28,193 nt of DNA from a virus, in the IMG/VR virus record IMGVR_UViG_3300046721_000158, positions 1-28,193 of that record. One strand, 5' to 3'. The notes under the pieces are model-generated. The model was not told the origin of the DNA, ran no database searches, and saw only the letters and a program-made list of their open reading frames with translations. This document shows positions 7,111 to 28,078 of this stretch, piece by piece. Positions within the stretch are counted from its first letter, which is position 1. Each line of letters opens with the position of its first letter. Both the position numbers and the translations under genes were made by a program.

Positions 7111-7653
7111 CTACCCCCAGCGATAAAAGCCGCCGACACGGCGGAAGCCCTTGGTGCGGAACCAGCGATCTTTTCTCTCAACGTCGACCTCCGTCATCGG
7201 GGTGACGAATAATGGAACCCCCTGATCGTCAGCGATCGCCTTTGCCGTATCGACGAGCAACCCAGCGGCGCCGGTGCCCTTGCGCACCATCGACTGAACA
7301 AAGAACCCAGCTTCCCAAAGCGCGTTGGCGGAACTCCACCACGGCGGTTCCTCCGACAGTATCATGCAACCGACGGGAGCGCCGTCCTGTTCTACGCAGA
7401 TCGCCAGCGACTTCTCGATCGCAAAGTACATCCACTTCATCGCCTTATCGACATCGAGCGGCAACCGAGAGTCACCCGCTTCGCTGTGGTATTGCAGCCC
7501 GAGCACCATCAGCTGCGGCAAGTCGTCAGGCACACAGAGCCGCACCTCCAGCTGCGGAGCTGGATTGGAGGCCACAACCTCCAGCTGGGGCGGCGGTGCC
7601 GCGTCAGCTAAAGTTGAGGAAACGGACTGGCGGCGTCGCCGGGCTTGCCCCAT
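7111..7653 (-). CDS. GNAT-family N-acetyltransferase-like protein
   Basis: About 180 residues if started at the ATG at 7653. The C-terminal 150 residues read as a GNAT fold: a first strand and helix LEVRLCVPDDLPQLMVLGL, a central AICVEQDGAPVGCMILSE strand pair, and a strand followed by an Arg/Lys-Gly-Thr-Gly-Ala-Ala acyl-CoA loop (SMVRKGTGAAGLLVDTAKAI), ending with FRTKGFRRVGGFYRW. The substrate is unknown. GNAT proteins of this sort occur among structural genes of several podoviruses, where they may modify a virion or host protein. The start is doubtful: the ATG overlaps the previous gene by 50 bases and lacks a ribosome site, while a GTG at 7575 is preceded by GGAGG and would still keep the first GNAT strand. 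A short in-frame duplication (PQLEV twice) lies between the two candidate starts. Confidence 0.75.
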   Translation of the reverse strand: MGQARRRRQSVSSTLADAAPPPQLEVVASNPAPQLEVRLCVPDDLPQLMVLGLQYHSEAGDSRLPLDVDKAMKWMYFAIEKSLAICVEQDGAPVGCMILSEEPPWWSSANALWEAGFFVQSMVRKGTGAAGLLVDTAKAIADDQGVPLFVTPMTEVDVERKDRWFRTKGFRRVGGFYRWG

Positions 7654-9124
7654 AGGTCTGCAGATACGGGTTATCAGGCATAGTGCCGAGGGTGAGCTGT
7701 GCTCGCCGCCGGATCTGCTCAAGCGCATCCGATGTCAGCGGGACCGGGTTTTGCTGTCCACCACCAGCCGCGCTGGCGATCTTGCTGGCGTTCTTGGCGG
7801 GGAACAGCGCATTGCCAGCCATATCGCCAATAACACCGCCAGCTAAGCTTGCACCAATCCCAGTGATGCCTTTAGGCGCGAGCGTGTGCCACAACGTGTC
7901 GAGCGGATGAGCCGAGAGCTGATCCATAAAGCCGGGCGCGCCCGATGCAGCCGCGTCTGCAGCCACACCAGCGCCAGGGCCATAATCAAAGCCGCCAGTC
8001 GCAGTCGTGGGCACACCCGCATTCGCCACGCCGGGGCCAAAATCTGCGCCCCCCGCTACCGGCGCGCCAGTAGCATAGTTGGCCTCTGGCAGCGGATTGG
8101 CGACCGTCGCACCTGCCGTGGCGTTGGCCCCAGCCCCAGCCGTAGCATTCGCCCCGGCCCCGGCGGCAGCGGCGCCGCTGGGGATCAGGGCGCCAAGCCC
8201 CGCGCCTGCCGCAGAACCAATAGCCGCGCGCCCAAAATTGTTCAAAAACCCCGCATTGGGATTGACGATCTCGTTGCCAATTCCGCCGCCGATCGCTCCG
8301 CCAGCCGCACCCAAAGCGGCAGAGCCCAGCCCGCCAGCCTCCAGACCCAAACTTGTGCCTATTCCCGGCAGGGCAAACGTGCCAATCGCCGCCAGCGCCA
8401 TCGGCAGGAGCGTTTGTAGATCGAACCCAAACCCTTCTCCCAGACCAGTAACAGGATTGACGCTTTGCTGCAGGTTGCCGACCTGGTGCGCCCGGCTGTC
8501 GCGTCCATGTGCGGCGAAGGCAAGCTGGATCGCCCGATGCAGCTCAGGATGCGCCGCCAAGAGATCCGGCGGCACCATCTGCTCACCACCCGTCGCATGG
8601 ACAAGCTGATTATCGCCGCCACGCCCCAGCGCAGAAGCCATACTCGTGTGCGTCACCGGCCCCTGGATCACCCGCGAAGGATTGAGCATCTGCTCTAAGG
8701 TAGGTGGTGGTGGGGGAGGGGGAGGCGGCCCTTGCGGCGCATTGGGCGTCGGTGGCGGACCCTGCGGCACCTGCGCATTTGGGGTTAGCGGCGGACCCTG
8801 CGGCACTTGCGCGTTGGGGGTCGGCGGCGGCTGGCCCGGCGCCCCCGGTATCGGCAGCGGCACGTTTAAACCAGCCGTGCGCCGGGCGACGCCAGGAGCT
8901 AAGGCCCCAGGCAAGCCAGGCGCTGGGTTGGCCGCTGCGGCAGCGGGAGACCCTGCACCCATGTATTGCGCAGCAAGGAGCTGTTGCACCTGCTGCGACA
9001 GGGGGTCAGCTGCCGACGCATCTGGCGGAGCCGCTGCTGCTGGCACGGCAGCAGGAGCTGCCCCCGCCGCCGGGGGTGTGCCAGAGACTGCCGCTAGCGC
9101 GGCCAGCTCCGGGGAAATAGCCAT
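7604..9124 (-). CDS. Putative internal virion protein, Pro/Ala-rich with glycine-zipper hydrophobic region
   Basis: 506 residues, starting in a TGATG overlap with the preceding 80-residue gene. The first 140 residues are Ala/Pro-rich and carry a 12-residue repeat (PPLTPNAQVPQG) and a run of nine prolines. Residues 168-190 (GRGGDNQLVHATGGEQMVPP) resemble the GDT-x-x-AH-x-x-x-GE motif common in phage virion proteins near the tail genes. Residues 236-340 are hydrophobic and Gly/Ala-rich (ALGAAGGAIGGGIGNEI, AAIGSAAGAGLGALIP), a glycine-zipper pattern typical of membrane-active ejection proteins. No enzyme motif is visible. The final 50 bases overlap the acetyltransferase frame if that gene starts at its upstream ATG. 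Ejection role is inferred. Confidence 0.7.
   Translation of the reverse strand: MAISPELAALAAVSGTPPAAGAAPAAVPAAAAPPDASAADPLSQQVQQLLAAQYMGAGSPAAAAANPAPGLPGALAPGVARRTAGLNVPLPIPGAPGQPPPTPNAQVPQGPPLTPNAQVPQGPPPTPNAPQGPPPPPPPPPTLEQMLNPSRVIQGPVTHTSMASALGRGGDNQLVHATGGEQMVPPDLLAAHPELHRAIQLAFAAHGRDSRAHQVGNLQQSVNPVTGLGEGFGFDLQTLLPMALAAIGTFALPGIGTSLGLEAGGLGSAALGAAGGAIGGGIGNEIVNPNAGFLNNFGRAAIGSAAGAGLGALIPSGAAAAGAGANATAGAGANATAGATVANPLPEANYATGAPVAGGADFGPGVANAGVPTTATGGFDYGPGAGVAADAAASGAPGFMDQLSAHPLDTLWHTLAPKGITGIGASLAGGVIGDMAGNALFPAKNASKIASAAGGGQQNPVPLTSDALEQIRRRAQLTLGTMPDNPYLQTYGASPATPPVRFLNFS
8729..8830 (-). repeat. Coding 36-bp tandem repeat, followed by a poly-proline run
   Basis: Residues 99-132 of the 506-residue protein hold two full 12-residue units (PPPTPNAQVPQG, PPLTPNAQVPQG) and a shortened third lacking two residues (PPPTPNAPQG). 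The nucleotide copies are close to identical, and a nine-proline run (down to about 8702) follows directly. Confidence 0.8.
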
Positions 9125-9638: not shown

Positions 9639-11680
9639 CAGCGCGATCCCCCCGGCTGGATGTAGGCCCGGCATACGCCGAGACGCCAATCCCCACCAGG
9701 CGTGTTGGACTCCAGCCGGTAGCCGATCGCCGCACCCGCCTCGCGCAGATCGACGTGATCGCCCGCCTGATTGAGGGTGAACGGGCCCGACGAGTCGATA
9801 GGATCCTGGCTGTTATCGGGGCGCAGCTGAACCCGCAATGTCATCGGCCCCTTTTGGTTTCTGACATCAGGCCAAAAAGCAAAAATGTCCATGTTGACAT
9901 TGCCGTCTTCGAGATCGATCTGCGCAGCCTCGATATAGCTGTCGATCGGCGAGCCATCGTAATCGTCGGTGCCAGTGTATTCCTCGTAGAGGATCAACCC
10001 GTTTGGCAGAAAGCTGATCGGGCAGTCGAACAGCTCGCGATCGAGCCAGGTGGTGATCGTCGCAAAGCCCGGGGTCCACACATTGGTCAGCACGTTGTAG
10101 ATCAGGTAGCGGTTGATCTCGCTCTGGTTCAGCTCTTGATAAAGAATGATCAACTCATTCTGAGAGGCGTAAGGCCCCATAAAGATCTTGGTCCGCTGGC
10201 GCCGGTCGATATTCTGGAAGAACCACTCGCGAATATCATCGCTCGGCAGCTGACTGAGCCCGCCATCCCATTTCCAAAACGCCCCATCGCCGACCCAGTA
10301 GCCCGCTTCGCCAAGCACGCAACCGGCATGCGGCCCAAAGATGCCGGTTCCGTTGCCGAGCCCGAGGGTGGTGAAGATAAGGTCGTCGTTGCGCCATTGA
10401 TGGGTAAACGCCTGCGTATCAGTCCATAGAAGATTAACACCGTTGCGTATTACCCTGCCTGTTATTAGGCGCGAGCCGCCTTGGATCCGGCGGTCCTCGT
10501 TGGCGGTGTTGCTTTCTGACGTCAGCCAATCAGTCGGGTCGAGCTGGTCGGCCCAGCGCAGCTTGAGCTTTACGCCGTCGGTGCCCAGGGCCGTGATATA
10601 GCGCTCGGGCGTGACAAACATGCCTTCGCACTGAGTCGGCGCGCCGTACAGCTCGACCGCGCGAATATTGAGGTTCTTGGTGTTGGGATCCCACTTGTAG
10701 ATCCCCCCGCCATTTGGATTGGCGAGCAGCCACTCGCCATAGGCGTCGAGGTGCCAGTAGCGGATATCGACGCGGAGCGTGCCCGTCCGCAGCGTGCCGT
10801 AGGTGCTGAGACCGTACCGGCCGAGACCGTAGCCATGATAATCGGCCGCGGTGTCGAGACCGCCCGCCAGCTCCAGCTGGACCCGCACAGCGCTGCCGCC
10901 GCCAACCGCGGTCGATGTCGCGTTGCTCGGCATCGTGATGGTGTAATCGTTGGTGTGCACGCTCTGGATCGTGTGCGTGCCATTGACGTTGAGCCCACCA
11001 ACCGGGGTTGCGCCCGAGATGATGACGACGTCCTTCTCGGCCGAATTATTGTTAGGGTGCGAGATCACCACGTTGGGCGATCCTGCTGTGGTCGATAGCG
11101 GGTTCGCCGCCAGCAGCAGGTGGTAATAGGTATAACTCAGCGTCCCGCCGCCACCGGTCGCCGTCGAGGTCGCCATGGTCCCGGCATCGATCGTGTAGTG
11201 GTCGGCATCGATAACCGACGTGACCAGGTAGACGCCAGCAATCGTCAAACCGCCGACCGGCGCGCTCGCCACCAGCTGCACCCAGTCATTGAGCATCAGC
11301 AAATGCGCGGTATCAAACACCGTGACGGTCGACGAGCCCGAGCTGGTCGACAGCGGTCCGATAAGCGTTCCGGCGGTCAGCTTGCGCAGCGGGGTGACGT
11401 CGTAGAGTGTGGCATTTTCGTAGACGTAAAGCTTTGAACTGGTACCGAGCGCGAGACGCTTATTGGTGTGGTTGTCCTCCCACTGCAGCGCGCCGCGACA
11501 GATGCCGACAAAAGACTGGATACCTTCGTCAAACAAATCGCGGCCGCCGCGCTTCTCGGGAAAACCACCCTGAAACCGCACCCACTGCGAGTCGACATAA
11601 CGCCCGGGCTGACTGTACGGCGTGTTCGACTTGACCACGCCGGGCGGCACCTGGATGCGCGTCATGCCCGGCACCGGCAT
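9638..11680 (-). CDS. Tail hub/nozzle protein, P22 gp10-like (packaged DNA stabilisation)
   Basis: 680 residues. The N-terminus (MTRIQVPPGVVKSNTPYSQPGRYVDSQWVRF, cited here in pieces: start, then GVVKSNT and WVRFQGGFPEKRGG) is typical of gp10-type stabilisation/nozzle proteins, which plug and extend the portal channel of short-tailed phages. The rest is beta-rich with repeated Trp/Gly motifs (LYVYENATLYDVTP, WHLDAYGEWLLA, GIYKWDPNTKNL, YWVGDGAFWKWDGG, YLIYNVLTNVWTPGF), as expected for a beta-propeller-like body. It is about 200 residues longer than P22 gp10; part of this is a duplicated beta module at residues 108-264. The ATG overlaps the adaptor stop as TGATG, and the position after the adaptor fits the tail assembly order. 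Family assignment rests on pattern memory, not a search. Confidence 0.75.
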   Translation of the reverse strand: MPVPGMTRIQVPPGVVKSNTPYSQPGRYVDSQWVRFQGGFPEKRGGRDLFDEGIQSFVGICRGALQWEDNHTNKRLALGTSSKLYVYENATLYDVTPLRKLTAGTLIGPLSTSSGSSTVTVFDTAHLLMLNDWVQLVASAPVGGLTIAGVYLVTSVIDADHYTIDAGTMATSTATGGGGTLSYTYYHLLLAANPLSTTAGSPNVVISHPNNNSAEKDVVIISGATPVGGLNVNGTHTIQSVHTNDYTITMPSNATSTAVGGGSAVRVQLELAGGLDTAADYHGYGLGRYGLSTYGTLRTGTLRVDIRYWHLDAYGEWLLANPNGGGIYKWDPNTKNLNIRAVELYGAPTQCEGMFVTPERYITALGTDGVKLKLRWADQLDPTDWLTSESNTANEDRRIQGGSRLITGRVIRNGVNLLWTDTQAFTHQWRNDDLIFTTLGLGNGTGIFGPHAGCVLGEAGYWVGDGAFWKWDGGLSQLPSDDIREWFFQNIDRRQRTKIFMGPYASQNELIILYQELNQSEINRYLIYNVLTNVWTPGFATITTWLDRELFDCPISFLPNGLILYEEYTGTDDYDGSPIDSYIEAAQIDLEDGNVNMDIFAFWPDVRNQKGPMTLRVQLRPDNSQDPIDSSGPFTLNQAGDHVDLREAGAAIGYRLESNTPGGDWRLGVCRAYIQPGGSR

Positions 11681-12321
11681 CAGGCAAACTCCACCGGCGC
11701 GTCGCTGGCACGATCGACGATATCGCTGAGCCCCTGGATCTCGTTCTTCTCGGCCTCGAAGATATTCATCCAGTAGGTCCGGTCAAAAGAACCCTGACCG
11801 GCCTCCTTCTCAAACTCGACCGAAAGCAACATGCAGGCGCTGCGCAGCAGGCGCGGATAAAGCCGGGTCAGCCAATTGGTCGGATTGTCAACGCTGAGGT
11901 CAGCTGGCACCTGGTAATAGGTCAAAAGGTAGGGGTATTCATGATCGGGGACCGCGTCAAAAGACAACCCTTCAGCGGTGATATAGTACCAGCCCGGCGT
12001 CTCCAGGATGCGCGAACCATTGACGTCGTAATTGTAATGCGCCTGCAGCGCCCGCTCATCGCCGCGCTTTAGCCGCGTGTTGTAATTACCGGTGATGCGG
12101 AACTCCCGCGCATCGATAAAATCATCCGGCACATCGATAAAAGCCTGGCCGTAGATCATAAAATCCTCGACCTCGGCCTTCATCCGCCAGTGCTTCAGCC
12201 GCGTGTAGATATAAGCCTGCGCCTCGGTGAGGATCGTCGGGCCGTCTGTCGTATCGCGGTTGATCCAGTTGGCGATCGAACCCGGCACGACCTTAGAAGC
12301 GACCAGCGTGGCGTAATCCAT
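11680..12321 (-). CDS. Head-tail adaptor protein, SU10-type phage adaptor
   Basis: 213 residues with a strong ribosome site (AAAGGAGG before ATG). The pattern YIYTRLKHWRMKAEVEDF, then IDVPDDFIDAREFRITG, a central beta stretch (ETPGWYYITAEGLSFDAVPD), YLLTYYQVPADLSVDNPTNW and LYPRLLRSACMLLSVEF matches the family of adaptors that sit below the portal ring (SU10/P22 gp4 class): LP-x-DF near the start, a YY-x-x-P loop, then NWL and a C-terminal helix. Its place before the gp10-like hub supports this. Length is within the range of the family. Confidence 0.75.
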   Translation of the reverse strand: MDYATLVASKVVPGSIANWINRDTTDGPTILTEAQAYIYTRLKHWRMKAEVEDFMIYGQAFIDVPDDFIDAREFRITGNYNTRLKRGDERALQAHYNYDVNGSRILETPGWYYITAEGLSFDAVPDHEYPYLLTYYQVPADLSVDNPTNWLTRLYPRLLRSACMLLSVEFEKEAGQGSFDRTYWMNIFEAEKNEIQGLSDIVDRASDAPVEFA

Positions 12322-12333
12322 GACCGGCCTCCT

Positions 12334-13941
12334 TTAATCGCTCGCCAGCTGGAGCTTATTCTCCAGTCCGAGGGCAAAAGCGATCGCGTCATAAACCACC
12401 TCGGGCGCGATGTTGACGGCGCACAGCGCGCCGCCCGGCTTCTCGACCCAATGGCAATCTTCCCAGGTGTAGTGCATCGCGTGGCACGGGTGGCAGGGAC
12501 AATCGACCGGCTCCAGCACCACAGTGCGGTGCCAATGCTTGGTCAGGTTTTCGTGGCCGCTATGGCTCAGCATGACCACCTTGGGCACCCGGAGCATCGC
12601 CGCTGCGTTTAATGCCCCGGTTTCGGGGCCAATTATCACATCGGCCTGCTCGATAAAGGCCAGGCTGCGGCGGATGTCCCAATCCCCGGCATGCACCAGC
12701 AACCGGTTAAAATCGATCGGCGCATCAGAGCCGAGCATTTGGGCCGCATCGGGATGACTCAGCGCGATCTCGACCATCGAAGCCAGATCAGCCTCGCCCG
12801 GGCCGCCAAACAGTACCACGGTAGCGTCGGTGCGCTGCAGCAGCCAGCCGACCACCACCTGGGTCCAGGGATAGGTCTTATGAAACGAAGTGCCGCTGAG
12901 CGCCCAGTAGACGATCGGCCCCGGCTCGATCTCGGCGCGATCATGCGCAGCTTGCGATCGCTCAGCTAGGGTTGAATAGAACCGCGCCCCGGCGAAATCG
13001 TCATACGGCACGCCAGCGATATCGTGCTGCCGCTCCAGGTAATTGACATGACCAGCGATGCGGCGCCGCGCCTCTAGATCGTGCCAGTGATTGCTGCGGC
13101 CACGCACCATCAGCAGCGCCACCTCGACGCTCTCCGACAGATTGATCACCTTGTCGAAGCGGGTCTGCAGCGTGCGCAGATAGGGCTCCAGGCTGTGGTT
13201 CGGCACCTGGTCCTTATCCTGCACCCACCAGGCATCGACGTGGGGGTTGTGCCGTACCACCTCCTGGCCCTTTGGCGTGGTGCAGACAGTGACGTGGTAG
13301 CCCTGCTCCTTGAGGCCGGGCAGCACCGTCGACATCATGATCATGTCGCCGATCGCGCCAAACCTAACGACCAGCGCCCGCTTCTTGCCCTTGGGGTTCC
13401 GCTCCCAGGGATCGATCAAGCACTCATGATCGCCCAGCTCCGCCTTGCGGTAGACCTGGAAGAAGCTGTACTCGTCGCCCTCACTGCGCACCTCGTTTTC
13501 GACCAGCCGCCAGGGGCCGATCCGATCCATGTGCCTGACGATGTCGCCGGGATCGAAATCATGCTTATGCGCCGGGTTTGCGTCCTCTTCACCGACATGC
13601 GGGTAGAAGTCGGCGTGCGGCAAATAGAGCACCAAATGGCCGCCCGGCTTGATGACGCGCCACCATTCTCGCAATGTCGCTTCGGTATCTTCGAGGTCTT
13701 CGAGGGTATGGCTAGAGAAGACAAAATCGAGCCCGCCATCGGCGAACATTCCGAGGCTGTCGGCCTCGGCAACGACGTCGACCTCGGACCCGGAATTACG
13801 ATCGACGCCGATCATATGCGGCCAGCATTTGCGGCCCAGCGCGCAACCGATATCGAGACCGAGGCCGCGCGTGTAAGGCACGACAAAACTAGCGATCTTG
13901 TCCTGCTCGTTACCCTGGCTGGTCTCGCGGCTCCAGGTCAT
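12334..13941 (-). CDS. Fusion of SAM-dependent methyltransferase and GT9 (heptosyltransferase-like) glycosyltransferase
   Basis: 535 residues, start in an ATGA overlap with the preceding gene. Residues 1-170 form a class I methyltransferase: motif I GLDIGCALGRKCWPHMIGVD (28-47), acidic D47 for SAM ribose, FSSHTLEDLED (75-85) and WWRVIKPGGHLVLYLPH (93-109), a Methyltransf_11-like pattern. Residues 188-530 form a GT-B glycosyltransferase of family GT9: ALVVRFGAIGDMIMMSTVLP at its start, then GPIVYWALSG and the nucleotide-sugar site GPETGALNAAAMLRVPKVVM (438-457), with a Cys/His cluster DCPCHPCHAMHYTWEDCHW at 480-498. GT9 enzymes usually add heptose or related sugars to LPS. Here both halves lie among virion genes, so decoration of a virion protein, a small glycan or the host surface are all possible; the sequence does not decide. 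Confidence 0.85.
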   Translation of the reverse strand: MTWSRETSQGNEQDKIASFVVPYTRGLGLDIGCALGRKCWPHMIGVDRNSGSEVDVVAEADSLGMFADGGLDFVFSSHTLEDLEDTEATLREWWRVIKPGGHLVLYLPHADFYPHVGEEDANPAHKHDFDPGDIVRHMDRIGPWRLVENEVRSEGDEYSFFQVYRKAELGDHECLIDPWERNPKGKKRALVVRFGAIGDMIMMSTVLPGLKEQGYHVTVCTTPKGQEVVRHNPHVDAWWVQDKDQVPNHSLEPYLRTLQTRFDKVINLSESVEVALLMVRGRSNHWHDLEARRRIAGHVNYLERQHDIAGVPYDDFAGARFYSTLAERSQAAHDRAEIEPGPIVYWALSGTSFHKTYPWTQVVVGWLLQRTDATVVLFGGPGEADLASMVEIALSHPDAAQMLGSDAPIDFNRLLVHAGDWDIRRSLAFIEQADVIIGPETGALNAAAMLRVPKVVMLSHSGHENLTKHWHRTVVLEPVDCPCHPCHAMHYTWEDCHWVEKPGGALCAVNIAPEVVYDAIAFALGLENKLQLASD

Positions 13942-14312
13942 TCCCCGGCCTCACAGACTGCGGCAGCGCGATCGAGCATCTCGTGGATTTCCACAAGCGT
14001 GCGCTCCGGCTGGTCTTCCCACGCCTCGTCCCACCAACCGTTGTCGCTACCTTTGGGCGGCGCCAACCGGTACATCAACTCCATACTTGCGATCGTCAGT
14101 TGATCACAGGCGTCGCTGTGCTCCTGGACTCGGTCAGTAATCGCCTGGAAGATCGCCATAGCCATATCGAGACGGCGATCCGGCGCCGAGCGCGGCTTGT
14201 ACCATTCATGGAAGAGGTCGGTGCCTGGCGCAACGCTCGGGTGCAACCATTTATCTTCGGTCGAAATCAAGGCTTTTGCCGCCCGAAAGATGTCAGCGGT
14301 CAGCTGGGTCAT
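13938..14312 (-). CDS. Hypothetical phage protein (124 aa)
   Basis: 124 residues from the ATG in an ATGA overlap with the upstream gene; a reading extended 14 codons further lies inside that gene and is not supported. It looks all-helical: FRAAKALISTEDKW, RRLDMAMAIFQAITDRVQ, CDQLTIASMELMYRLAPP, then an acidic C-terminus with WWDEAWEDQPERTLVEIHEML. The first helix weakly recalls the DUF6197 start, which is not enough to assign it. It overlaps the methyltransferase-glycosyltransferase start, so the two are probably translated together. Confidence 0.65.
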   Translation of the reverse strand: MTQLTADIFRAAKALISTEDKWLHPSVAPGTDLFHEWYKPRSAPDRRLDMAMAIFQAITDRVQEHSDACDQLTIASMELMYRLAPPKGSDNGWWDEAWEDQPERTLVEIHEMLDRAAAVCEAGE

Positions 14313-14629
14313 TCGGCCTCCAGCGAGGCGATCGCCGCTTCGCGCCCCTGCCACTCATCGCCGCGCACCTCGACGAGGCCGCGCAGCGTGTCGTCATCCA
14401 TCGCCCGGTAGCCAGCAACCGGCGCCGCCGACGGCATCGGCGCTGCCGGGACGGCGAGCGATCCCCGCGGCGGCGCCTTTGGCGCAGCCTTTGGCCGCGC
14501 GTTCGGGAACTGCCCCGGCAGCGGCTCGCCTGCGGCATTAAACTCGATCCCCTCCTGGAAGTAGCCGACGAGCCCGCCAGGCGACCACACCTCCGAGAAG
14601 GGCCGAGCGCGATCAAGCTTCCACGGCAT
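14309..14629 (-). CDS. Hypothetical phage protein (106 aa), Pro/Ala-rich centre
   Basis: 106 residues. The ordered N-terminus (MPWKLDRARPFSEVWSPGG, then GYFQEGIEFNAAGEPLPG) is followed by a Pro/Ala linker and a short acidic C-terminal helix (DDDTLRGLVEVRGDEWQGRE). The start is one base after the previous stop and the end overlaps the next gene as ATGA. The N-terminal part, with a Trp and a YFQEGIEFNAAGE stretch, is a form I have seen in small proteins of podovirus head regions, without a known function. Confidence 0.65.
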   Translation of the reverse strand: MPWKLDRARPFSEVWSPGGLVGYFQEGIEFNAAGEPLPGQFPNARPKAAPKAPPRGSLAVPAAPMPSAAPVAGYRAMDDDTLRGLVEVRGDEWQGREAAIASLEAE

Positions 14630-15549: not shown

Positions 15550-16491
15550 TCAGCTCGCCGAGTCCCATTTGACGATGCGTGCCTGTAATGCGGTAGTTTG
15601 GATTAGAGCATACCCGCCCAAGTAGTACCAGGCGATGCCGCGCGAACGACCGTAATCCCCAGGGATCTTGCCGCGGATTTCCTCTGGCACGCAGAGCGCC
15701 TCGGCGACCGTATCCTCGCCAAAGAAAATCGCCTGGTGCGACAGGTTATTCGACCAGGTCTCCTTCACGATATTGGTCTGCTCGACAAAACGAACACCCT
15801 CGTAGCGACCAATTTCACCATTCAAAATCATCGTAAAGCCTTGGTCGGTGTACTGGTGTACTGACTCAAGGTCATTCTTCATTTGACGCCAGGTGGTCGG
15901 GTGGGCGATGCCGATGTAATCGTCGGCCATGTAAGGCGGGATATTCCGCTCTTTCATGATATCGACGATCGCTTTGACGTGGTTCTTGCCAAAGGCGACG
16001 TTATTCACCGCGGTGGCCGTGCCGTTGGTGGTGAGAATTACTTGGTCAGTCGCAGTCGTTGCGACAACGCGCAGCGGTGTCGACCTGAACTGGTTCCACG
16101 CGCCAGTATCGAGTTCTTTTTTACAATGATTTTTTAACACTTTTTGGATGATCTCTTCTACTGGATGCTTCGACATGTCGTCGAGCATGCCGGTATAAGG
16201 GACACTGCGGCCGTGCTCGACTACAGTTCCGGTTCCCTGAGTAATCGTGAAGTTGTCCTCGGGGATTGTCGCGGTCTCGATCAATGCTGCATAAGCAGTA
16301 TCGGCTACATCACTGTAGACGTTCCAGGTGAATGTTTGTCCTTTATGGAGACCCTTGTCTGTGAAGTCTTTGGCGTCACAGAATTGACGATATTTTACTA
16401 GCGGCTGTACTGCGGTGCGCAAAGTATCCGACAGCTCCAGCGCATACATAAAGCCGCCGAGGGTGTTTGTCGTCCAGACTTGACCAGCCAT
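15550..16491 (-). CDS. Major capsid protein, N4-gp56 family
   Basis: 313 residues from the ATG at 16491, which has GGAG about nine bases upstream; a longer reading starts inside the scaffold gene and is rejected. The sequence matches the N4-gp56 coat family: an N-terminal helix region (LELSDTLRTAVQPLVKYRQF), KGQTFTWNVYSDV, VVEHGRSVPYTGMLDD, a DP-like helix in HPVEEIIQKVLKNH, the conserved core GIAHPTTWRQMKNDLE, HQYTDQGFTMILNGEIGR and EGVRFVEQTNIV. This HK97-fold coat forms the icosahedral head. The length is close to the shorter members of the family. It lies just after the scaffold gene, and no head maturation protease was found, as in P22- and N4-like phages. Confidence 0.9.
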   Translation of the reverse strand: MAGQVWTTNTLGGFMYALELSDTLRTAVQPLVKYRQFCDAKDFTDKGLHKGQTFTWNVYSDVADTAYAALIETATIPEDNFTITQGTGTVVEHGRSVPYTGMLDDMSKHPVEEIIQKVLKNHCKKELDTGAWNQFRSTPLRVVATTATDQVILTTNGTATAVNNVAFGKNHVKAIVDIMKERNIPPYMADDYIGIAHPTTWRQMKNDLESVHQYTDQGFTMILNGEIGRYEGVRFVEQTNIVKETWSNNLSHQAIFFGEDTVAEALCVPEEIRGKIPGDYGRSRGIAWYYLGGYALIQTTALQARIVKWDSAS

Positions 16492-16502
16492 GTCGCGTGC
16501 TC

Positions 16503-17663
16503 CTAGCGATAGACCGGCTGGTTCCTCGTCCGCCTCATCCAATCGACAACTTGGCTACCCGTAACGCCCGATCGGACGTTCGGCGTGTCTGCTGGCTGCG
16601 GTGCGGAGGAAGCTGCCGGTGCCTGTGGGGTGGACCGTTTTACAGCGACCCTGCCGCCATTCGCTGCCAGGGCCGGTGCGGATCGCACGGGCTGAGCTGG
16701 TGTAATGGACCCAGGGGTAGATGCGGGGGTTTCACCGCGCCACCGGGCAATCGTGCTGCGGACGCTATCAGCGGCCTCATACATGATCTGCTCGACGGTG
16801 CGAGGAATGCCTGCTGCATTGTAGCGATCTTTAAGCGTCTCGGCTTCCAAGGCGGCTAGCCTGGTCGCCTTCTCGTCGCTGACGATGTCAGCATAATCGT
16901 TCTGAAACCGGGTGAGCGAGTCTGTCAGGGACTGCACGTTGCTGACCCGCTGGTAGACCGCGTCGGCGATCTGGTTGGGGTCGATATATTGCTGCTGGGG
17001 CTGTGGCGCCGGGCGCAGATTACGCGCAATCTCGGCACCATACTGGGCCAGCGCCTCGGCCGCAGCCTCCTCATCGCCATATTGCAGCGCTTTGACATGC
17101 TCGACCAGCCGCGGCCGGTCGAATTGCGGCTCGGGCGGCTGCTGCTGGCGCAGGATCTCTTGGTCGCGCTGCTGCGCCGCCATTTCGATCGCGTGCTCCG
17201 CGGCGCGCACCATATCCTGCTCGGAGAGGTCGAGCGGCGTGCCACGCACCACGATGCGGTGCACCCGGGGCTGTGGCTGCTGATATTGCGGCTGCTGATA
17301 TTGTGGCTGTTGCGGCTCAGGTTGCGGTGGCGGCCGTGGTGGTGGCGGGGCTTCCGGCTCGCGGCGCGGCGCGCTTTCGATTGGCGCCGGTTCAGGCGGC
17401 GGCTCCTGCGCCACACCAGCAGCCCGCTCGCCCGCTAGTCGCTCCTGCTCGATCTGCTCGCGCCGCTTGACGAGGATCGCCTCCATGCCTCTGGCATGCG
17501 GCGTCTGCGACCCGGGAAGTGGTTTGTCGTCTTCACCTGACGGTGTCTCTACCGGCTCCGGCGGTAGCGCATCTTCCAGCCGCACAGTTTCAGTTGGACG
17601 GAAACTGTCTATAGGCGGGGCATCTTGTGGCAGTGCGCCACTATCGGTCTGTGGATCGGCCAT
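16503..17663 (-). CDS. Putative scaffolding protein
   Basis: 386 residues, start in a TGATG overlap with the upstream small gene. The N-terminal 160 residues are acidic and Pro/Gln-rich (including QPQYQQPQYQQPQP), followed by helical stretches likely to be coiled coils (LDLSEQDMVRAAEHAIEMAA; VEHVKALQYGDEEAAAEALA; QSLTDSLTRFQNDYADIVSD), and a basic Ala/Pro/Arg-rich tail ending RRTRNQPVYR. This composition, the position between portal and coat protein and the length are those of scaffolding proteins, which bind the coat through a basic C-terminus and leave the head before packaging. There is no single diagnostic motif, so the call relies on position and composition. Confidence 0.8.
   Translation of the reverse strand: MADPQTDSGALPQDAPPIDSFRPTETVRLEDALPPEPVETPSGEDDKPLPGSQTPHARGMEAILVKRREQIEQERLAGERAAGVAQEPPPEPAPIESAPRREPEAPPPPRPPPQPEPQQPQYQQPQYQQPQPRVHRIVVRGTPLDLSEQDMVRAAEHAIEMAAQQRDQEILRQQQPPEPQFDRPRLVEHVKALQYGDEEAAAEALAQYGAEIARNLRPAPQPQQQYIDPNQIADAVYQRVSNVQSLTDSLTRFQNDYADIVSDEKATRLAALEAETLKDRYNAAGIPRTVEQIMYEAADSVRSTIARWRGETPASTPGSITPAQPVRSAPALAANGGRVAVKRSTPQAPAASSAPQPADTPNVRSGVTGSQVVDWMRRTRNQPVYR
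17275..17304 (-). repeat. 15-bp tandem repeat in the scaffold gene
   Basis: Two copies of a 15-bp unit (forward GGCTGCTGATATTGC and GGCTGCTGATATTGT) encode the QYQQP repeat in the Pro/Gln-rich linker. One base differs between the copies, so they probably arose by slippage. Confidence 0.8.
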
Positions 17664-18025
17664 CAAGCGGTGTCACTGGGCAACAATCCGTCTTCACGCT
17701 TGATCTTCTCATGGGCGGTTTTTGCCCGTTCGTCAACCTCTTGCAGCCACAGCTGCAGCACGGTGATGAACCTGGCGCGGTGCTGCAAGCTGCGAATAGC
17801 GTTCTGATCGTGTGGCGGGATTTCGGCCAATTTGGCCAAAGCCTCGTCACGCTCAAACTGCGCGCGGGCTAGAATATACCGCCAGGCCGGAGTGTCTTCG
17901 ATCGACCGGTTGATGCCGATCGCCAGGTCGATCGCAGCGTAATCGTCATCGCGCGCGATCCGCTGCTGAGTGATCTCCTCCATCTCCTCAGGCGTCGTCG
18001 GATAATAATCGTCGTCATCCGCCAT
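17663..18025 (-). CDS. Small helical protein between portal and scaffold (120 aa)
   Basis: 120 residues. Starts inside the last 11 bases of the portal gene and ends as TGATG with the scaffold start. After an acidic N-terminus (MADDDDYYPTTPEEMEE) it is almost all helix: AWRYILARAQFERDEALAKL, PHDQNAIRSLQHRARF, ITVLQLWLQEVDERAKTAHE. Small helical proteins of this type are common beside podovirus portal genes, but no specific role is established from the sequence. The tight overlap on both sides suggests synthesis coupled to portal and scaffold. Confidence 0.7.
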   Translation of the reverse strand: MADDDDYYPTTPEEMEEITQQRIARDDDYAAIDLAIGINRSIEDTPAWRYILARAQFERDEALAKLAEIPPHDQNAIRSLQHRARFITVLQLWLQEVDERAKTAHEKIKREDGLLPSDTA

Positions 18026-20300
18026 TGCGCTGCGCCGCCATGCCGATGCGGTGATCGCTGATCACCTTGGAGAGGGCAGGGATCGCGCTGATGACATGCC
18101 CCGAGGCTTTGGTGCGAGCATCGATCAGCGCACGCTGGGTCTCCGCCGCCTGAGCTTCCCGGTCCTTTTGTGCGTTGATCGCGGCGATCCGCTGGTCAGA
18201 GTCGCTCTTCAGCCCGGCGATGCGCAGCGCATTCTCCTGTTTAAATTGCTCGATCTGCAGCGTTTCGGGTTGGAATTTCACACCCGGCGGCGGGTTCTTC
18301 ATCGCCGCGATCCGCTCCTGGCTGGCAGTCTCCATCTCGGTCTTCTGGATGACCGCCTGGGTCTGCATCTGCACTTCCTGCATTCGGTTCGGGTCGACCC
18401 CGACCGGCATCTGCTTCTGGCTCTGGTTCAATGCCATCTGCGCCGCGTGCGGGTCAAAGCCAGGAACAAAGAAGCGCTTGCCTTCGCTGAACCCAAGGGC
18501 ACCAAACACCTCGCTGCACACCTCGTCCCATTGCAGCCCCGACCCGGCGGCCTCGCCAAACAGCTTCTCGATGACGCTGGCGGCGGTCATCATGTTGTTG
18601 AGGCGAATCTGCGGATTAGTCGCGCCGATCCCGACATCGAGGTGGCAGGTCACCTTCTGGCTCATCAGCCAATCGTCGACCTTATTGATGCTGTAGCGCT
18701 GCACCAACTGCGCCTTCGCGCCCGCCAGGGCGATGACCATCTCGTCTTCTTCGAGACGCTCTTCCAAATCGAGCAGGTCTTCGAGGACACCAGTGACCCA
18801 AGTCTGTTTAAACAGCTCCAGCTGCAGCTCACCGATTGAGCCCGCAGCCCCGGCGATCAGCTCCATGCCGCCGACGGTCTCGTTGAGATTGTTCGCGGTA
18901 CCGACCGATGCCTGGCTGAACGAGCCAGCCAATTCGTCAAAATCTTGGTTGATGCGATCCTGCTCGGCGAGCGAGCTGGCGCTCGGGTCGGGCGCCCTGT
19001 CCCAGCTGACATCGTCGGCGGCGTTCACCGTGATCGGTTTGCCAGGCATGAATATTCTGAAGTCGCCAAGGCTTGAGGCGGCTGGTGATCCGGCCTTGAC
19101 CTTTGGCTGTGGCTGCAGCGCGAGCTTGAGGGCGTCGAGCCGCAGGTTCACCGTCTCGTTGGCCTGAGCTTGCAGGTCGCGGCCGAGTTCGACATTGCTC
19201 GCCGGGTAGTTACGGTGGGTCTCCAGGTTGGTGATGCCGATCCTGTAGGGCCGCTTCTCGGTGCCGTAGACCTCGACATGAGTGCGCGGGTCGGTCAGCA
19301 GCTTGTCGCTGCCCAGCGTGTAATAGACGTAATCGGTGCCCTTCCACTTCATCGTCACCAGGTGGACCCAGGCGACATCAAAGTCGCGCGCCGATTGCGG
19401 CTGAGACCGGCGCGGATCCTGGCGATGAGCGTTGCGTGTCAGGCGCGTCGCGTCGTCGCTGACCGTATTGCTTGAGAGGATCGAGCCATCATCGTAAGGC
19501 CGCCACTCGGGATCCTCGCCGTTCTGGCTGCGCATCTTCTGGCGCACCTCGCCGACATACATCGGGATGCGGTGAATGAGGTAGGGACTGCTTTCGACCG
19601 GCCGCATCCAATCGCAGGCCGGGTCAAAGCGGAAATTATCCGGGGCGATCAGCTCGACCGCAGGGTGGTCAGCAACCACCTGGTAATACTGGTAGGTGTC
19701 GGGCGCTGCCTGACCCATATCGGAGCCCTGGCCCGAGCCAAATTCCGGCGTCTCGGCTTGCTTCTCGCCGATCAGCTTTTCCTCGTATTTCCAGTATTGC
19801 CGCGAGATGCACACCCCGTAGACATCACAATCCTGACGCGCGCCGAGCACGGTGAGAAACCACGGGATGCTGGTTCTCAGGCGATAATTCAGCAGCTCCT
19901 CTTTGAACTTGGCGCTGGCGAGCTGCGCCGGGTCGTCCTCGTTCTGCGCGTGCACGCTGACAATGTTGTTGGTTGAGAAGAAGGCTTGCGCCGTCGCCGC
20001 TTCATTCTTCCTGACAACGCTCCTGGTCTTTGGCCTAAAGAGGCGGGTGCGGTAGCGGTAGTCGGTGCTGTGGTATTTCGAGCCCGCGACGTGGCGTCCC
20101 TGGAACATCCTGATGCTGTCGCCCCAGGCGCTGCGGCGGCTGGCGTTGAGCCAGTTGGTTGATGCGTCGTAAGCGTCACGCGCCATGCGACCCCAATCAG
20201 CGTCTTCCGGTCCACCGGTGCCGCCGGTCCCGCTACCGACGCCTTCGCTCGTCGAGCTGAGCGCCGAGCCTTCGCCGGGCGGCTGGTCGCGACCCATCAT
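18015..20300 (-). CDS. Portal protein, P22-like
   Basis: 761 residues, beginning in an ATGA overlap with the preceding gene. The N-terminal third contains helices and the motif RYRTRLFRPKTRSVVRKNEA, followed by AAFFSTNNIVSV-type segments (TAQAFFSTNNIVSVHAQNED), a conserved LTVLGARQDCDVYGVCISRQ and a beta-rich wing region with WEY-type motifs. The C-terminal 120 residues are a long Gln/Glu/Lys helix (QTQAVIQKTEMETASQERIA and on), matching the barrel helices of P22-class portals. The ring is the packaging gate for TerL and the seat for the adaptor. Its large size (about 720-760 residues in this class) fits, and it lies directly before scaffold and coat genes. Confidence 0.85.
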   Translation of the reverse strand: MMGRDQPPGEGSALSSTSEGVGSGTGGTGGPEDADWGRMARDAYDASTNWLNASRRSAWGDSIRMFQGRHVAGSKYHSTDYRYRTRLFRPKTRSVVRKNEAATAQAFFSTNNIVSVHAQNEDDPAQLASAKFKEELLNYRLRTSIPWFLTVLGARQDCDVYGVCISRQYWKYEEKLIGEKQAETPEFGSGQGSDMGQAAPDTYQYYQVVADHPAVELIAPDNFRFDPACDWMRPVESSPYLIHRIPMYVGEVRQKMRSQNGEDPEWRPYDDGSILSSNTVSDDATRLTRNAHRQDPRRSQPQSARDFDVAWVHLVTMKWKGTDYVYYTLGSDKLLTDPRTHVEVYGTEKRPYRIGITNLETHRNYPASNVELGRDLQAQANETVNLRLDALKLALQPQPKVKAGSPAASSLGDFRIFMPGKPITVNAADDVSWDRAPDPSASSLAEQDRINQDFDELAGSFSQASVGTANNLNETVGGMELIAGAAGSIGELQLELFKQTWVTGVLEDLLDLEERLEEDEMVIALAGAKAQLVQRYSINKVDDWLMSQKVTCHLDVGIGATNPQIRLNNMMTAASVIEKLFGEAAGSGLQWDEVCSEVFGALGFSEGKRFFVPGFDPHAAQMALNQSQKQMPVGVDPNRMQEVQMQTQAVIQKTEMETASQERIAAMKNPPPGVKFQPETLQIEQFKQENALRIAGLKSDSDQRIAAINAQKDREAQAAETQRALIDARTKASGHVISAIPALSKVISDHRIGMAAQRNGG

Positions 20301-20653: not shown

Positions 20654-20991
20654 CACCTAGCGCTCCCACCCGGGTAACCGGGCGAAGTGGCATCGCCAGG
20701 CGAGGTCGCGTAGGGGTCCGGCTTCTGGCGGAACTTGCGACCGTTGGAAAACTCGTAGACCACCGGGCGGCGGCTTTCGAGATCGAAATCCTTATCGGCA
20801 TCGCGCACAATCTGCGCCCAGCTGCGCACTGATGTGTTGGGCGGCCGGTAATCAGCCCCCGGCTGGCCGATCGGCGGCGGCCGAAAGACCACATCCCAAA
20901 TCGCCTCGCCATCATCCCAATGGGTCTTGTTCGCATCCCAATGGCTGTAGCTGACGACGAGGCTGTTGCTCTCCTTGGTCGAGGCTGCCAT
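20653..20991 (-). CDS. Hypothetical phage protein (112 aa)
   Basis: 112 residues, start overlapping the fibre stop (TGATG) and end overlapping the next gene the same way. N-terminal half has several Trp residues (SYSHWDANKTHWDDGEAIWD), then VVFRPPPIGQPGADYRPPN and a charged helix SWAQIVRDADKDFDLESRR, with a polar Ser/Gly/Pro tail. No family is recognised. Placement between the tail fibre and portal genes suggests a virion or assembly role, but nothing in the sequence proves one. Confidence 0.65.
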   Translation of the reverse strand: MAASTKESNSLVVSYSHWDANKTHWDDGEAIWDVVFRPPPIGQPGADYRPPNTSVRSWAQIVRDADKDFDLESRRPVVYEFSNGRKFRQKPDPYATSPGDATSPGYPGGSAR

Positions 20992-23090
20992 CAGGCGGCC
21001 TTTCTTCGCGCTGGCGGCGGGGTCATAGCCTCGACCTTGGCGTTCAGCTCTTTCACCGCGTTGATGAGCGCATAAATCAAGTTGCCCGGTTCGAGCGTCG
21101 AAAGCTCGACGCCTTCCTTTTTGCCGACCGTCGCCACCATAGTCCCGACGACCTCGGGAATGTGGGGCTTCACCTCGTCTGCAATCAGCCCGAATAAACG
21201 CCGGGACGGCTTTTCACCGCTGCCCATCGGCGTGTTCGGCGCATAGCGGAAATAAACCGGCGACAATTTTACAATCGCATCAAGACCACGCTCGTATAGC
21301 GTAATATCCTGTTTAACCTGCCGATCCGACAAACTTCCCCACGACCCGGAAATATTGTAACAAGCGCCGTTGCCGTAAATAATACACAGGTTGGTCACGC
21401 CCGTTGTGTCTTGAATCAAAAGCGGATATTCAGTGCTGGTCGCGCCTGCCGTTATAATGACGCCATGCGCGCCGCTCACCGAACTAAATCTCGCAGCCCA
21501 CCAGCCAGCGGTAGTATTGCTGGCATATAGTTTAACGCCGGTTACTAGCGACGTGGTGCCGATGGCGACCCTGCCGCCCGTCGCCACAAAAATTCCGTTC
21601 GCGGGATTATTGTCGGTAAAGATGCCGATATTCTGGCCGGTGTTGATGGTCTTCACCGCCCAGAAATTGGTCAGCGAGGTATCGCGGGAGATCTGAAATC
21701 CTGCGTAGGCACTGGTCACCGACATATCGATCCCCGGCGCATACGCGGTCGCCGAGCGCGCGTAGAGACCGATATAGCCGTCATGCGCCGTCAGGTCGCC
21801 CACGGTGAGGTTGTAACTTTTGGCGCTGCCCGCAACATCGAGGAGAAACTGCGGCGTCGTCGTGCCGATGCCGACATTGCCGGAAGACGATTGCACCGTC
21901 AGGCTGACGCTCGCCGTCGTGCTGTTGTACAAACCAAAATCGTGGCTGGCGCTCGCGCTCGTAAACAAACCCCATCGCGCATTACCGCCATCGCGAAAAC
22001 TAATCGACGCCGTCTGATTTGCGGTGGGAGTGTCGAGGATCAGGTTGCTGTCGTTATTAACCACATGCAGCTTGCCGCTCGGCCCCGTCGTGCCGATGCC
22101 GACGTTGCCGTTGTGGTCGATCCGCATCGCCTCGGCAAGCGCGACCGAGCCGTTTGGCACTGTCTGAAACGTCGTCGCCCCGCCCTGTGCGGTATCCGTC
22201 CAATTCTGAGTCGCTCGGAAATCGATACGCGGGCCAAGCCCATAGTTCGTCGCAGCGCGCCCGCGCCCGAGGATCGCGCCGATCACGTCGTTTGCTTGCA
22301 AAGCAGTCGGCGCGGCGCCTGTGCCGCGCGCCTGTCGCAGCCACAGCACCGGCACATTGCCGGTGCCGAAACTGTCAATAATAATCTGCGAATTTACCCC
22401 GTCCGCTGCAGCGACGACTAGGTTTGCGGGCAAGAGATCCGTTGCCGATGGACCCGCCGCGTTGGCGTTGAGCACCAGGCCACCCTGGCCGGGGTCCGGC
22501 GCCGGGTTGCCGATGACGACGCCCTGGTTGATCGTTGCCCGCTGAACAATCGATGTCGTGCCGGGGGTATTTGTCGAAAAGGCAAAAAACGATCCCTGTG
22601 CGGTATTGCTCCAATTTTCGCTTGCCTTGACCGCGAGCGTTGTTGCGTTGCCATAAGCCGAGGCGCCGTAACCTGTTGTAATGATGTTGCTTAACGTGTC
22701 CGCAGCTTGTACCGCTGTCGGCGCCGCCGCAGTGCCACGCGCTTTGCGCGCGGTCAGGTTGGCGCTCGCTGACGGACTGTAAATATCGATCAGCACACCG
22801 TTGCCGCCAGCCTCGCTCGCGGCCCAGATCAAGGGCGTCGTCGATGTTTGCGGTGTTGACGCCGCCTTGTTGATCACCAACGATGTCGCTGGCGGGCTGG
22901 TGACCGGGTTGCCGATGACGATATTGGGATTGACCGTCAGCTGCCCGGTCAAGGCCCCGCCGGTGAGCAAAAGGTAAGGCCCGCCGCCAGCGACGGTCGC
23001 TCCCTCCCACTTGCTGCCATCCCACTGCCAGGACGATCCAGCCGTGGTGAAGATCTGGGCGAGGGTAGGGGTGTTGGGGAAATTGATCAT
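20991..23090 (-). CDS. Tail fibre/spike protein with C-terminal S74 intramolecular chaperone peptidase
   Basis: 699 residues from the ATG at 23090, preferred because MINFPNTPT followed by WQWDGSKWEG is the usual fibre N-terminus and a GAGGG site precedes it; a start 21 codons upstream lies in the previous gene. The body holds two copies of the fibre module with RGTxAAP, ENWSxTAxG and GVVIGNP, plus GNVGIGTTxP collagen-like or fibre repeats. The last 113 residues are a Peptidase S74 domain: LSDRQVKQDI places the Ser-Lys dyad at S588 and K593, and RRLFGLIADEV and KELNAKVEAM follow. These domains trimerise fibres and then cut themselves off. Receptor-binding role is inferred from this family. Confidence 0.85.
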   Translation of the reverse strand: MINFPNTPTLAQIFTTAGSSWQWDGSKWEGATVAGGGPYLLLTGGALTGQLTVNPNIVIGNPVTSPPATSLVINKAASTPQTSTTPLIWAASEAGGNGVLIDIYSPSASANLTARKARGTAAAPTAVQAADTLSNIITTGYGASAYGNATTLAVKASENWSNTAQGSFFAFSTNTPGTTSIVQRATINQGVVIGNPAPDPGQGGLVLNANAAGPSATDLLPANLVVAAADGVNSQIIIDSFGTGNVPVLWLRQARGTGAAPTALQANDVIGAILGRGRAATNYGLGPRIDFRATQNWTDTAQGGATTFQTVPNGSVALAEAMRIDHNGNVGIGTTGPSGKLHVVNNDSNLILDTPTANQTASISFRDGGNARWGLFTSASASHDFGLYNSTTASVSLTVQSSSGNVGIGTTTPQFLLDVAGSAKSYNLTVGDLTAHDGYIGLYARSATAYAPGIDMSVTSAYAGFQISRDTSLTNFWAVKTINTGQNIGIFTDNNPANGIFVATGGRVAIGTTSLVTGVKLYASNTTAGWWAARFSSVSGAHGVIITAGATSTEYPLLIQDTTGVTNLCIIYGNGACYNISGSWGSLSDRQVKQDITLYERGLDAIVKLSPVYFRYAPNTPMGSGEKPSRRLFGLIADEVKPHIPEVVGTMVATVGKKEGVELSTLEPGNLIYALINAVKELNAKVEAMTPPPARRKAA
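22458..22922 (-). repeat. Duplicated fibre module, copy in the S74 fibre gene
   Basis: Residues 57-211 of the 699-residue fibre align with residues 337-492 of the adjacent 784-residue fibre. Shared landmarks are AASTPQ, PLIWAASE, ANLT-x-RK-x-RGTAAAP, ENWS-x-TA-x-GS and GVVIGNPA-x-DPGQGG. The 66 bases at 22461-22526 differ from 23983-24048 at only four positions. Confidence 0.85.
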
Positions 23091-23100
23091 GCCACCCTCA

Positions 23101-26356: not shown

Positions 26357-28078
26357 TCAAGTATCGAAATGCGACTCCGGCATCTCAAATCTATTGCCAG
26401 CGGCCGGAGGCGGGCTCACCTCCATATCATAAACCCGGCTGCAAGCATCCAAGAAGTCGTCATGCGTGGCGTAAGGGTGGTCTTCCAGCTCGGTGATAAA
26501 TCTAATCGTCACGTCGTAGAGGCTGTTCTGCTCGTCGACCCGCTTGATCGCTCTTGCCAGCAACTCGCGATCGCCGCGATTGACCGCGTCGCGCTGGGCG
26601 CTCGTCAGCTGCTTTAGCTGGGTGTACTTGAGATCGACCACCTCGCCGCTTTCCTCGTCGACCTCAAGCCGCCACTGCGCGGCGCCGATGCCGGAGCGAT
26701 AGACCGGGGTCGGGATGTAGAAGCGGCCCAGTCTTAGATCGGGTTCGAGCCGCTCTATTCTGTCGTCCTTCGACTGCCTGCCGTCCCTGGTCCAGTTCAA
26801 TTCCTTGAGGGGAAAACTGTAACGCTCGACGACCATTCTTTCCCTAAAGTATTCGTCGTCGGTCTGCATGCCGTAGCGCTCGTAGCCGACGCCGACGACC
26901 ATGCACCCCGGAGCCTTATCCCAGCGTTTATGAAGATCGCGAATGACCCGCCATCGATCGCTGAGCGACATTCGGTGGCAGTAGCCGTCGAGCAGGTACT
27001 TGGTTCCGGCTGAGGCAAGGCCGATGACGGCGATAGCAGTGTAGTCACTGTTGGCGCTCCTGCCTTTTGAGGGATCGCACAGGATGACGATGTTGAGGTT
27101 TCGCGGCCGCACCTCGTAACCGAGGAGCCAACCGACCTCAAAGGTGAGGTCCTCGCCGGACATCGGGTTCTGCAGCATCTGCGCGGCGACCGTGCTGCGC
27201 TGCTTCCTTTTCTTGTCTTCCCACTCTTCCGGGGTCAGCAACACGGGCGTGCCGTCGAGCTTCCCGTTATGGGTCGCCGGGTAGATGCGCGGCTTGACGA
27301 CCTGACGCTCCATCATCTCGGCGTAGGTGTCGGCCAGCTTATATCTCGTGCCGATATATCTCGCGACGCCACCTCTGGTGCCGAGGTTGTCGCTCATCTC
27401 CCAGGACATCGTGGTCTTTCTGACCTGATCCGAGGTGCCGACGCTCTCCAAGGTCACCATGTCGTCGTAGACCCTGATATCAAAATGCTTGCTGGTCGGC
27501 TGACCGTCGACCACCCCCCAGGCCTCGATCGTCGCCTCCTTGGGATTGTTCTTTCTTTTGACAATGATGCCGTCGGTTACCGACCATTGCGGTGCGTCGC
27601 GCTCGGGATCCTGCCAAAGGACATCCGGGTAGAGCCCCTTCAGATCCTCGTTGTCGCGCATCTCGCGCATCAGCTGTCCAAGAAAATCCTTAGCGATGCC
27701 TCTGGTGTGCGAGAAGATCGCCACCGTCAGCTCGGGGTTGTTGAGGATATCCTGCAGTGTCAGGCCGTAGGTGATGATGGTCGATTTGTAATGCTCTCTC
27801 GCCCACAAGTCTAAATGTCCATCAGGGCTGGCTTGTACTTCGCGGCAGCGCTGGTAGATCCACTCCCTGCGCATATCCTGGCGATGCAGGATATCGACCA
27901 TCAAGAAGTAAAGATCCTGTTTGCCGAGCGCTCGCCTCGCCTTATAGAGCCCCTCCTTGCCGCCGAGCTTGGCCGCCTCGGTCAAGACCTGCATATGATT
28001 ACGGTGCGCCGCCTCCATGCTGCTGGGGCTGGCGAACAGCGACCGCGGTGGGGTCGATCGCCTTAGGGGTTCAGCCAT
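26357..28078 (-). CDS. Terminase large subunit (TerL)
   Basis: 573 residues. The ATPase domain carries a deviant Walker A, AREHYKST (93-100, with K98), and a Walker B-like IRVYDDMV with D205-D206. Substructure RGIAKDFLGQLMREM follows the nucleotide loop. The RNase H-like nuclease domain has ILCDPSKGR (D335), NSDYTAI (D345) and the late THDDFLDA (D546) acidic residues. This protein docks to the portal, pumps DNA and cuts the concatemer. No small terminase was recognised in the window; it may lie beyond the right edge. The start ATG at 28078 overlaps the end of the upstream gene by 16 bases, and the length is usual for this class. Confidence 0.9.
   Translation of the reverse strand: MAEPLRRSTPPRSLFASPSSMEAAHRNHMQVLTEAAKLGGKEGLYKARRALGKQDLYFLMVDILHRQDMRREWIYQRCREVQASPDGHLDLWAREHYKSTIITYGLTLQDILNNPELTVAIFSHTRGIAKDFLGQLMREMRDNEDLKGLYPDVLWQDPERDAPQWSVTDGIIVKRKNNPKEATIEAWGVVDGQPTSKHFDIRVYDDMVTLESVGTSDQVRKTTMSWEMSDNLGTRGGVARYIGTRYKLADTYAEMMERQVVKPRIYPATHNGKLDGTPVLLTPEEWEDKKRKQRSTVAAQMLQNPMSGEDLTFEVGWLLGYEVRPRNLNIVILCDPSKGRSANSDYTAIAVIGLASAGTKYLLDGYCHRMSLSDRWRVIRDLHKRWDKAPGCMVVGVGYERYGMQTDDEYFRERMVVERYSFPLKELNWTRDGRQSKDDRIERLEPDLRLGRFYIPTPVYRSGIGAAQWRLEVDEESGEVVDLKYTQLKQLTSAQRDAVNRGDRELLARAIKRVDEQNSLYDVTIRFITELEDHPYATHDDFLDACSRVYDMEVSPPPAAGNRFEMPESHFDT

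Follow-up and report, generated by a model that had tools for sequence, protein, structure and literature searches.

Glycosylation of phage-particle proteins is known mainly from mycobacteriophages, in which phage-encoded glycosyltransferases (GTs) such as Che8 gp110 and Corndog gp38 glycosylate the phages' own capsid and tail-tube proteins (PMC12363180). Among bacterial enzymes, TibC is soluble, has a protein acceptor, and carries a four-Cys iron finger (PMC4358343). TibC/BAHT (4rap, 4rb4) have an N-terminal β-barrel, assemble into a dodecameric ring, and act on an autotransporter substrate. The fold of glycosyltransferase family 9 (GT9) is that of the LPS heptosyltransferases WaaF and WaaC (1psw, 2h1h). 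Separate 'glycosyltransferase family 9' and methyltransferase (MT) annotations have been reported in P. aeruginosa prophages (PMC10449497). Our literature searches yielded no account of a GT9, or of an MT-GT fusion, within a phage structural module.

We analysed a 28,193-base IMG/VR record (hereafter the window), which carries a late gene block typical of podoviruses: terminase, fibres, portal, scaffold-like gene, capsid, small genes, fusion, SU10-type adaptor, and tail, in that order (Table 1). The fusion is an intact ORF with an ATG start, located exactly where the first-pass annotation had placed it. Pfam and PHROG matches positioned it between the capsid, portal, and terminase genes upstream and the SU10 adaptor downstream, and the ATGA overlap of the fusion start with the upstream stop (13941-13938), from which translational coupling had been proposed, is present. 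No promoter- or terminator-like signals of the fusion gene exceeded chance, which is consistent with the suggested late-operon expression, and its GC3 resembles that of the neighbouring genes. The location in the capsid module may reflect expression timing only. We propose, at about even confidence, that the product is a late soluble bifunctional enzyme, which adds both a sugar and a methyl group to a virion protein and draws the sugar from a host sugar nucleotide.

Table 1. Features of the fusion gene and its surroundings in the window.
Feature	Position	Strand	Details
MT-GT9 fusion gene	12334..13941	-	535 aa
Class I SAM methyltransferase domain, about residues 4-170	13432..13932	-	Pfam Methyltransf_11, fold match 3dli
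Predicted GT-B / GT9-like glycosyltransferase domain, about residues 187-529	12355..13383	-	fold matches, hhalign
RFGAIGD motif, residues 193-199	13345..13365	-	R193, G195, G198, D199 invariant
Rewritten donor motif GPETGALNAA, residues 438-447	12600..12630	-	conservation, bacterial GT9 comparison
Four-Cys knuckle, C483-x2-C486-x9-C496-x10-C507	12421..12495	-	Cys invariant in 74/74
Upstream gene, DUF6197, 138 aa	13938..14354	-	overlaps fusion by ATGA (Pfam)
Small protein with LDxxRPxxE start, 106 aa (RPxxE gene)	14309..14629	-	
Major capsid protein	15550..16542	-	phrog_1357, E 2.7e-21
SU10-type head-tail adaptor, directly downstream of fusion	11680..12321	-	PF24175, E 4.8e-19
SU10-type portal	18015..20300	-	PF23899, E 5.5e-22
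Terminase large subunit	26357..28078	-	phrog_38, E 6.3e-42

Several other genes of the window were also identified. The small RPxxE gene is the usual immediate 5' neighbour of the fusion in relatives; here, the DUF6197 gene is inserted between the two, and no homologue of it was detected in the other loci searched. A GNAT-type acetyltransferase (7111-7728, minus strand; phrog_1249, E 3.1e-15) lies in the tail-gene block, with homologues downstream of the fusion in five other loci. The product of 20991-23153 (minus strand) resembles a tail fibre and has a Peptidase_S74 intramolecular chaperone domain at its C terminus.

The MT half matched Pfam Methyltransf_11 above the cut-off (E 4.5e-11), and its predicted fold gave 3dli as the best class I methyltransferase match (Z 15.9, residues 4-166; VIA-align), in agreement with the SAM-dependent methyltransferase claimed by the first-pass annotation. 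Together with this Rossmann-like MT fold, we detected the SAM motif I GLDIGCALGRKCW, the acidic D47 after strand 2, DFVFSSHTLED, and a conserved NPAHKHDF. Among the 66 members with an MT half, G26 (98%), D30 (82%, otherwise E or Q), G32 (94%), D47 (88%), and D72 (98%) are conserved. The type 11 methyltransferases of the cyanophages Synechococcus phage S-T4 and Microcystis phage Mel-JY01 are 31-34% identical to the MT half but, unlike it, are unfused and encoded outside the capsid module.

The GT half scored below the Pfam GT9 cut-off (PF01075; E 0.0042, 16.9 bits against 22), so that the advised separate Pfam search of the halves recovered the MT but not the GT. At an E value of 0.01, the window protein alone matched GT9 among the six members scanned. 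An AlphaFold2 model of the fusion was compared by fold; built on a 74-sequence alignment (pLDDT 94.0, pTM 0.91), it superseded an earlier poor fold from a 7-sequence alignment (pLDDT 64.6). Residues 187-529 matched WaaF (1psw, Z 23.8), 3tov (Z 23.5), WaaC (2h1h, Z 19.9), and TibC (Z 19.3) (VIA-align), and the profile of the GT half aligned with bacterial GT9s at 99.9% and E 1.2e-34 (hhalign). Although the sequence alone is sub-threshold, the confident fold match to WaaF/WaaC and the profile-profile match settle the GT9 assignment, and the model indicates a GT-B glycosyltransferase with a fold closest to GT9 enzymes. The comparison with WaaC and WaaF thus bore out the reading of an MT and a GT9 fold within one frame. 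The fusion shares with WaaF/WaaC and 3tov the GT-B fold over the C-terminal half (Z 19.9-23.8), the GxxGD motif, the conserved Lys (K355), and a similar C-terminal layout. It differs from them in the fused MT, the donor motif, and the lack of basic charge, and from GT9 heptosyltransferases in its location inside a capsid operon and its sub-threshold Pfam score.

Across the 74 aligned members, R193, G195, G198, D199, E273, Y301, E327, G350, and K355 are invariant (74/74), as are R424, E440, H460, S461, C483, C486, C496, and C507. D199 falls at the position of the Asp that is proposed to be catalytic in WaaC. With G198, D199, and K355 invariant, the N-terminal GxxGD bearing the catalytic Asp and the donor-phosphate Lys of GT9 are both retained. 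The donor motif is not: the phage family has E-T-G..N, with E440 in 74/74 (100%) and N445 in 72/74 (97%), whereas bacterial GT9s have D-T/S-G/A..H (13 of the 15 compared; the remaining two showed no pattern match). Owing to this change, heptose transfer from ADP-heptose is uncertain, and the rewritten but conserved site, as read from the alignment, points to an unstudied sugar donor. The departure from the canonical motif might also suit a protein that acts on a host metabolite or other small molecule, or one that has become a structural, non-catalytic part of the particle. Such roles are improbable, since the rewritten pocket is near-invariant over the 74 members, as expected of an active site with a changed donor.

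The charge of the GT half was also distinct. By isoelectric point, a coarse measure that ignores proteome-wide bias and was compared with 15 bacterial sequences, the GT half has an acidic median of 6.5 and its N-lobe a near-neutral value of 7.25, whereas the N-lobes of bacterial GT9s are basic in 15/15 cases (8.0-11.0). These values speak against a membrane lipid as the acceptor and for a soluble one. The altered donor motif and the loss of the basic charge both weaken the parallel with LPS heptosylation on which the first-pass annotation drew.

The same two changes weigh against the main rival to a virion-protein acceptor, in which a methylated sugar would be added to an envelope glycan such as the LPS core, either in the lysogen or towards the end of infection, and might block superinfection, as the first-pass annotation suggested, or the re-adsorption of progeny to debris. 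The LPS heptosyltransferase fold of GT9 favours modification of the host surface, as does the evidence of temperate members and of a host that bears LPS. An integrase occurs in 8 of the 26 long contigs, and a 204 kb Geobacteraceae MAG contig (JAMXLF010000035.1, locus L013) harbours what looks like a prophage with this module, together with one integrase-family gene and, about 90 kb away, GT9 genes of the ordinary kind. The other 18 contigs show no integrase, although some may be fragments. Moreover, the gene is embedded in the head operon and has no promoter of its own beyond chance, unlike typical lysogenic-conversion genes. On balance, we regard host-surface modification as unlikely, but as the first alternative to be considered. 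The two roles named in the first-pass annotation, on the virion or on the host surface, thus stay the leading ones.

The suggested Cys/His cluster proved to be real, with four Cys invariant and H487 and H490 nearly invariant in the 74 aligned members, but not special to this family. A similar four-Cys stretch occurs at the same place in ordinary bacterial GT9s, including those of the Geobacteraceae host. The knuckle is likely a structural metal site, as far as its sequence allows. It recalls the C-terminal four-Cys site of TibC/BAHT, with which the fusion also shares its fold; the spacing is C-x2-C-x9-C-x10-C in the fusion and C-x2-C-x15-C-x11-C in TibC. An MT fold replaces the β-barrel at the N terminus, and no autotransporter is encoded near the fusion. 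We therefore rejected a TibC-type identity based on the cluster, since bacterial GT9s share a similar stretch and the TibC barrel is missing.

A single-sequence scan yielded six full-length relatives at about 40% identity, while a GT-half profile detected 459 relatives in IMG/VR, the best 80 of which are mostly MT-GT fusions. An MT-motif scan detected 396 relatives in IMG/VR, and the best 80 of these match nearly the whole query. Paired comparisons, in which a few contig pairs entered twice, gave median dN/dS values of 0.13 (MT) and 0.14 (GT), indicating that both halves are under purifying selection. Full-length homologues at ~40-55% identity, together with dN/dS values of about 0.13-0.14 in both halves, show that the ORF is not due to chance. 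The first-pass annotation had held that a rare or degenerate fusion, or unconserved pockets, would make a functional system doubtful; the search for the same fusion in related phages returned several hundred relatives, and the pocket is near-invariant.

Outside these metagenomic records, the distribution was narrow. In 50,697 GenBank phage records, the MT half found matches and the GT half was absent, except for a weak partial match in Mel-JY01. There, a separate methyltransferase gene is followed by an adjoining gene weakly matching GT residues up to 253, in a glycosyltransferase cluster. No PHROG model covers the GT half, and plasmids gave MT-only matches. Among 297 bacterial genomes from the phylum to which the L013 host belongs, four gave strong hits, all adjoining capsid, adaptor, or RPxxE phage genes, and ordinary GT9s followed after a wide E-value gap. 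The family thus stays with virion genes even in prophages. Two long ORFs checked as candidate bacterial MT-GT9 fusions were instead a GT9 with LpxK and a GT9 with a weak Kdo-transferase-like match.

The loci anchored on the GT recurrently show the order terminase, portal, scaffold, capsid, small genes, fusion, adaptor, and the slot between the capsid gene and the adaptor is kept in nearly all those of podovirus type. To avoid circularity, we also collected loci by the capsid protein alone, blind to the GT. In this survey, the GT occupied the same slot in 40 of 46 dereplicated informative loci, an upper estimate because the survey was limited to the 80 top-scoring loci for a capsid profile that was itself derived from GT-bearing phages. 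The 46 loci consisted of 27 with the fusion, 2 with separate MT and GT genes, 11 with the GT alone, and 6 with none. The fusion is thus close to a standard gene in the capsid block of SU10-type podovirus-like contigs, and is encoded with late virion genes both in the window and in these loci. In cultured phages with the same capsid type (52% identity in Vibrio phages, 48% in Escherichia phages), the slot holds small genes only, as in Escherichia phages Pondi and Bas95 and the Vibrio phages. The fusion is therefore accessory to assembly, and the capsid does not need it.

L064, L045/L128, and L149 encode MT and GT in adjoining separate genes, an arrangement that favours a joint function. Other arrangements were an MT gene flanked by two GT copies (L072, 7980-10578) and, in L048 (5793-8954), an additional GT-alone gene behind a fusion. 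In Vibrio phage 1.232.O (L291, 7992-8477), an annotated HNH nuclease gene directly follows the capsid gene, in the region that the fusion occupies elsewhere. The RPxxE gene was considered as a required partner and dismissed, as L164 and L174 have it but no GT, and there are loci with the GT alone that lack it.

Modification of nucleic acid was considered in the light of gene content. Phage GTs that glycosylate DNA are common according to a reference cited in PMC12619734, and the GT could glycosylate hypermodified phage DNA as in T4, with the MT acting on the base or the sugar. This is very improbable: members of the thymidylate synthase / dCMP hydroxymethylase family are absent from the 26 contigs of 41-67 kb (0/26), which led us to reject T4-like DNA glycosylation, the gene is grouped with late head genes, and the fold is GT9 rather than that of a known DNA GT. 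The same contigs contained no epimerase or nucleotidyltransferase family member of a sugar-nucleotide pathway, and a GT2 was found in 3 of the 26. We therefore set aside a pathway encoded by the phages themselves and take the donor to be host-made.

For the proposed modification of a virion protein, the enzyme would be expressed late from the head operon in soluble form, and its GT9-like half would take a sugar from a nucleotide-sugar of the host and pass it to a soluble acceptor. The acceptor would most likely be a virion protein of the same operon, either the capsid protein or a small head protein. The MT half might then methylate the transferred sugar (or the acceptor), leaving a methylated glycan on the particle. 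In favour of this reading are the kept slot in the capsid module, the head-module location in siphovirus-type phages as well, the virion-gene neighbours in bacterial genomes, the adjoining separate MT and GT genes, the TylF-type gene behind the fusion in L007, the near-invariant pocket, purifying selection, and the loss of basic charge; the cultured relatives that do without the gene, and the absence of a co-travelling capsid-module partner from the gene lists of the siphovirus-type phages, count against it. This role would be the same as that of the mycobacteriophage virion GTs, which are likewise phage-encoded; the fusion differs from them in its MT and its GT9-like fold, and its acceptor is only proposed. 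More tentatively, and at somewhat less than even confidence, we suggest a large, hitherto undescribed family of phage enzymes whose GT9 donor site has been remodelled and which puts a methylated non-heptose sugar on capsid-module proteins of SU10-type podoviruses, as a near-core, one-gene decoration module moving between phage orders. If the family does glycosylate virion proteins as the mycobacteriophage enzymes do, decorated particles would be widespread among phages that infect Gram-negative bacteria of soil, water, and sediment. Such decoration would have escaped notice until now, as none of the GenBank phage records searched contains the gene.

In a quick tree of the GT, siphovirus-type L004, L005, L006, and L011 are nested in a podovirus-type clade (SH-aLRT 95-98), indicating that the gene has passed to siphovirus-type phages. 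By inspection of the gene lists, we saw no podovirus capsid-module partner co-travelling with it into these phages. In L005, the gene directly follows an HK97-type protease/capsid gene, while in L006 and L007, as read from the ORFs, it precedes ClpP-like protease and capsid genes. A methyltransferase gene and the MT-GT9 fusion form a head-module mini-cassette in L007 (5450-8051) and L006 (1753-3884), and in L007 the gene after the fusion encodes a TylF-type O-methyltransferase.
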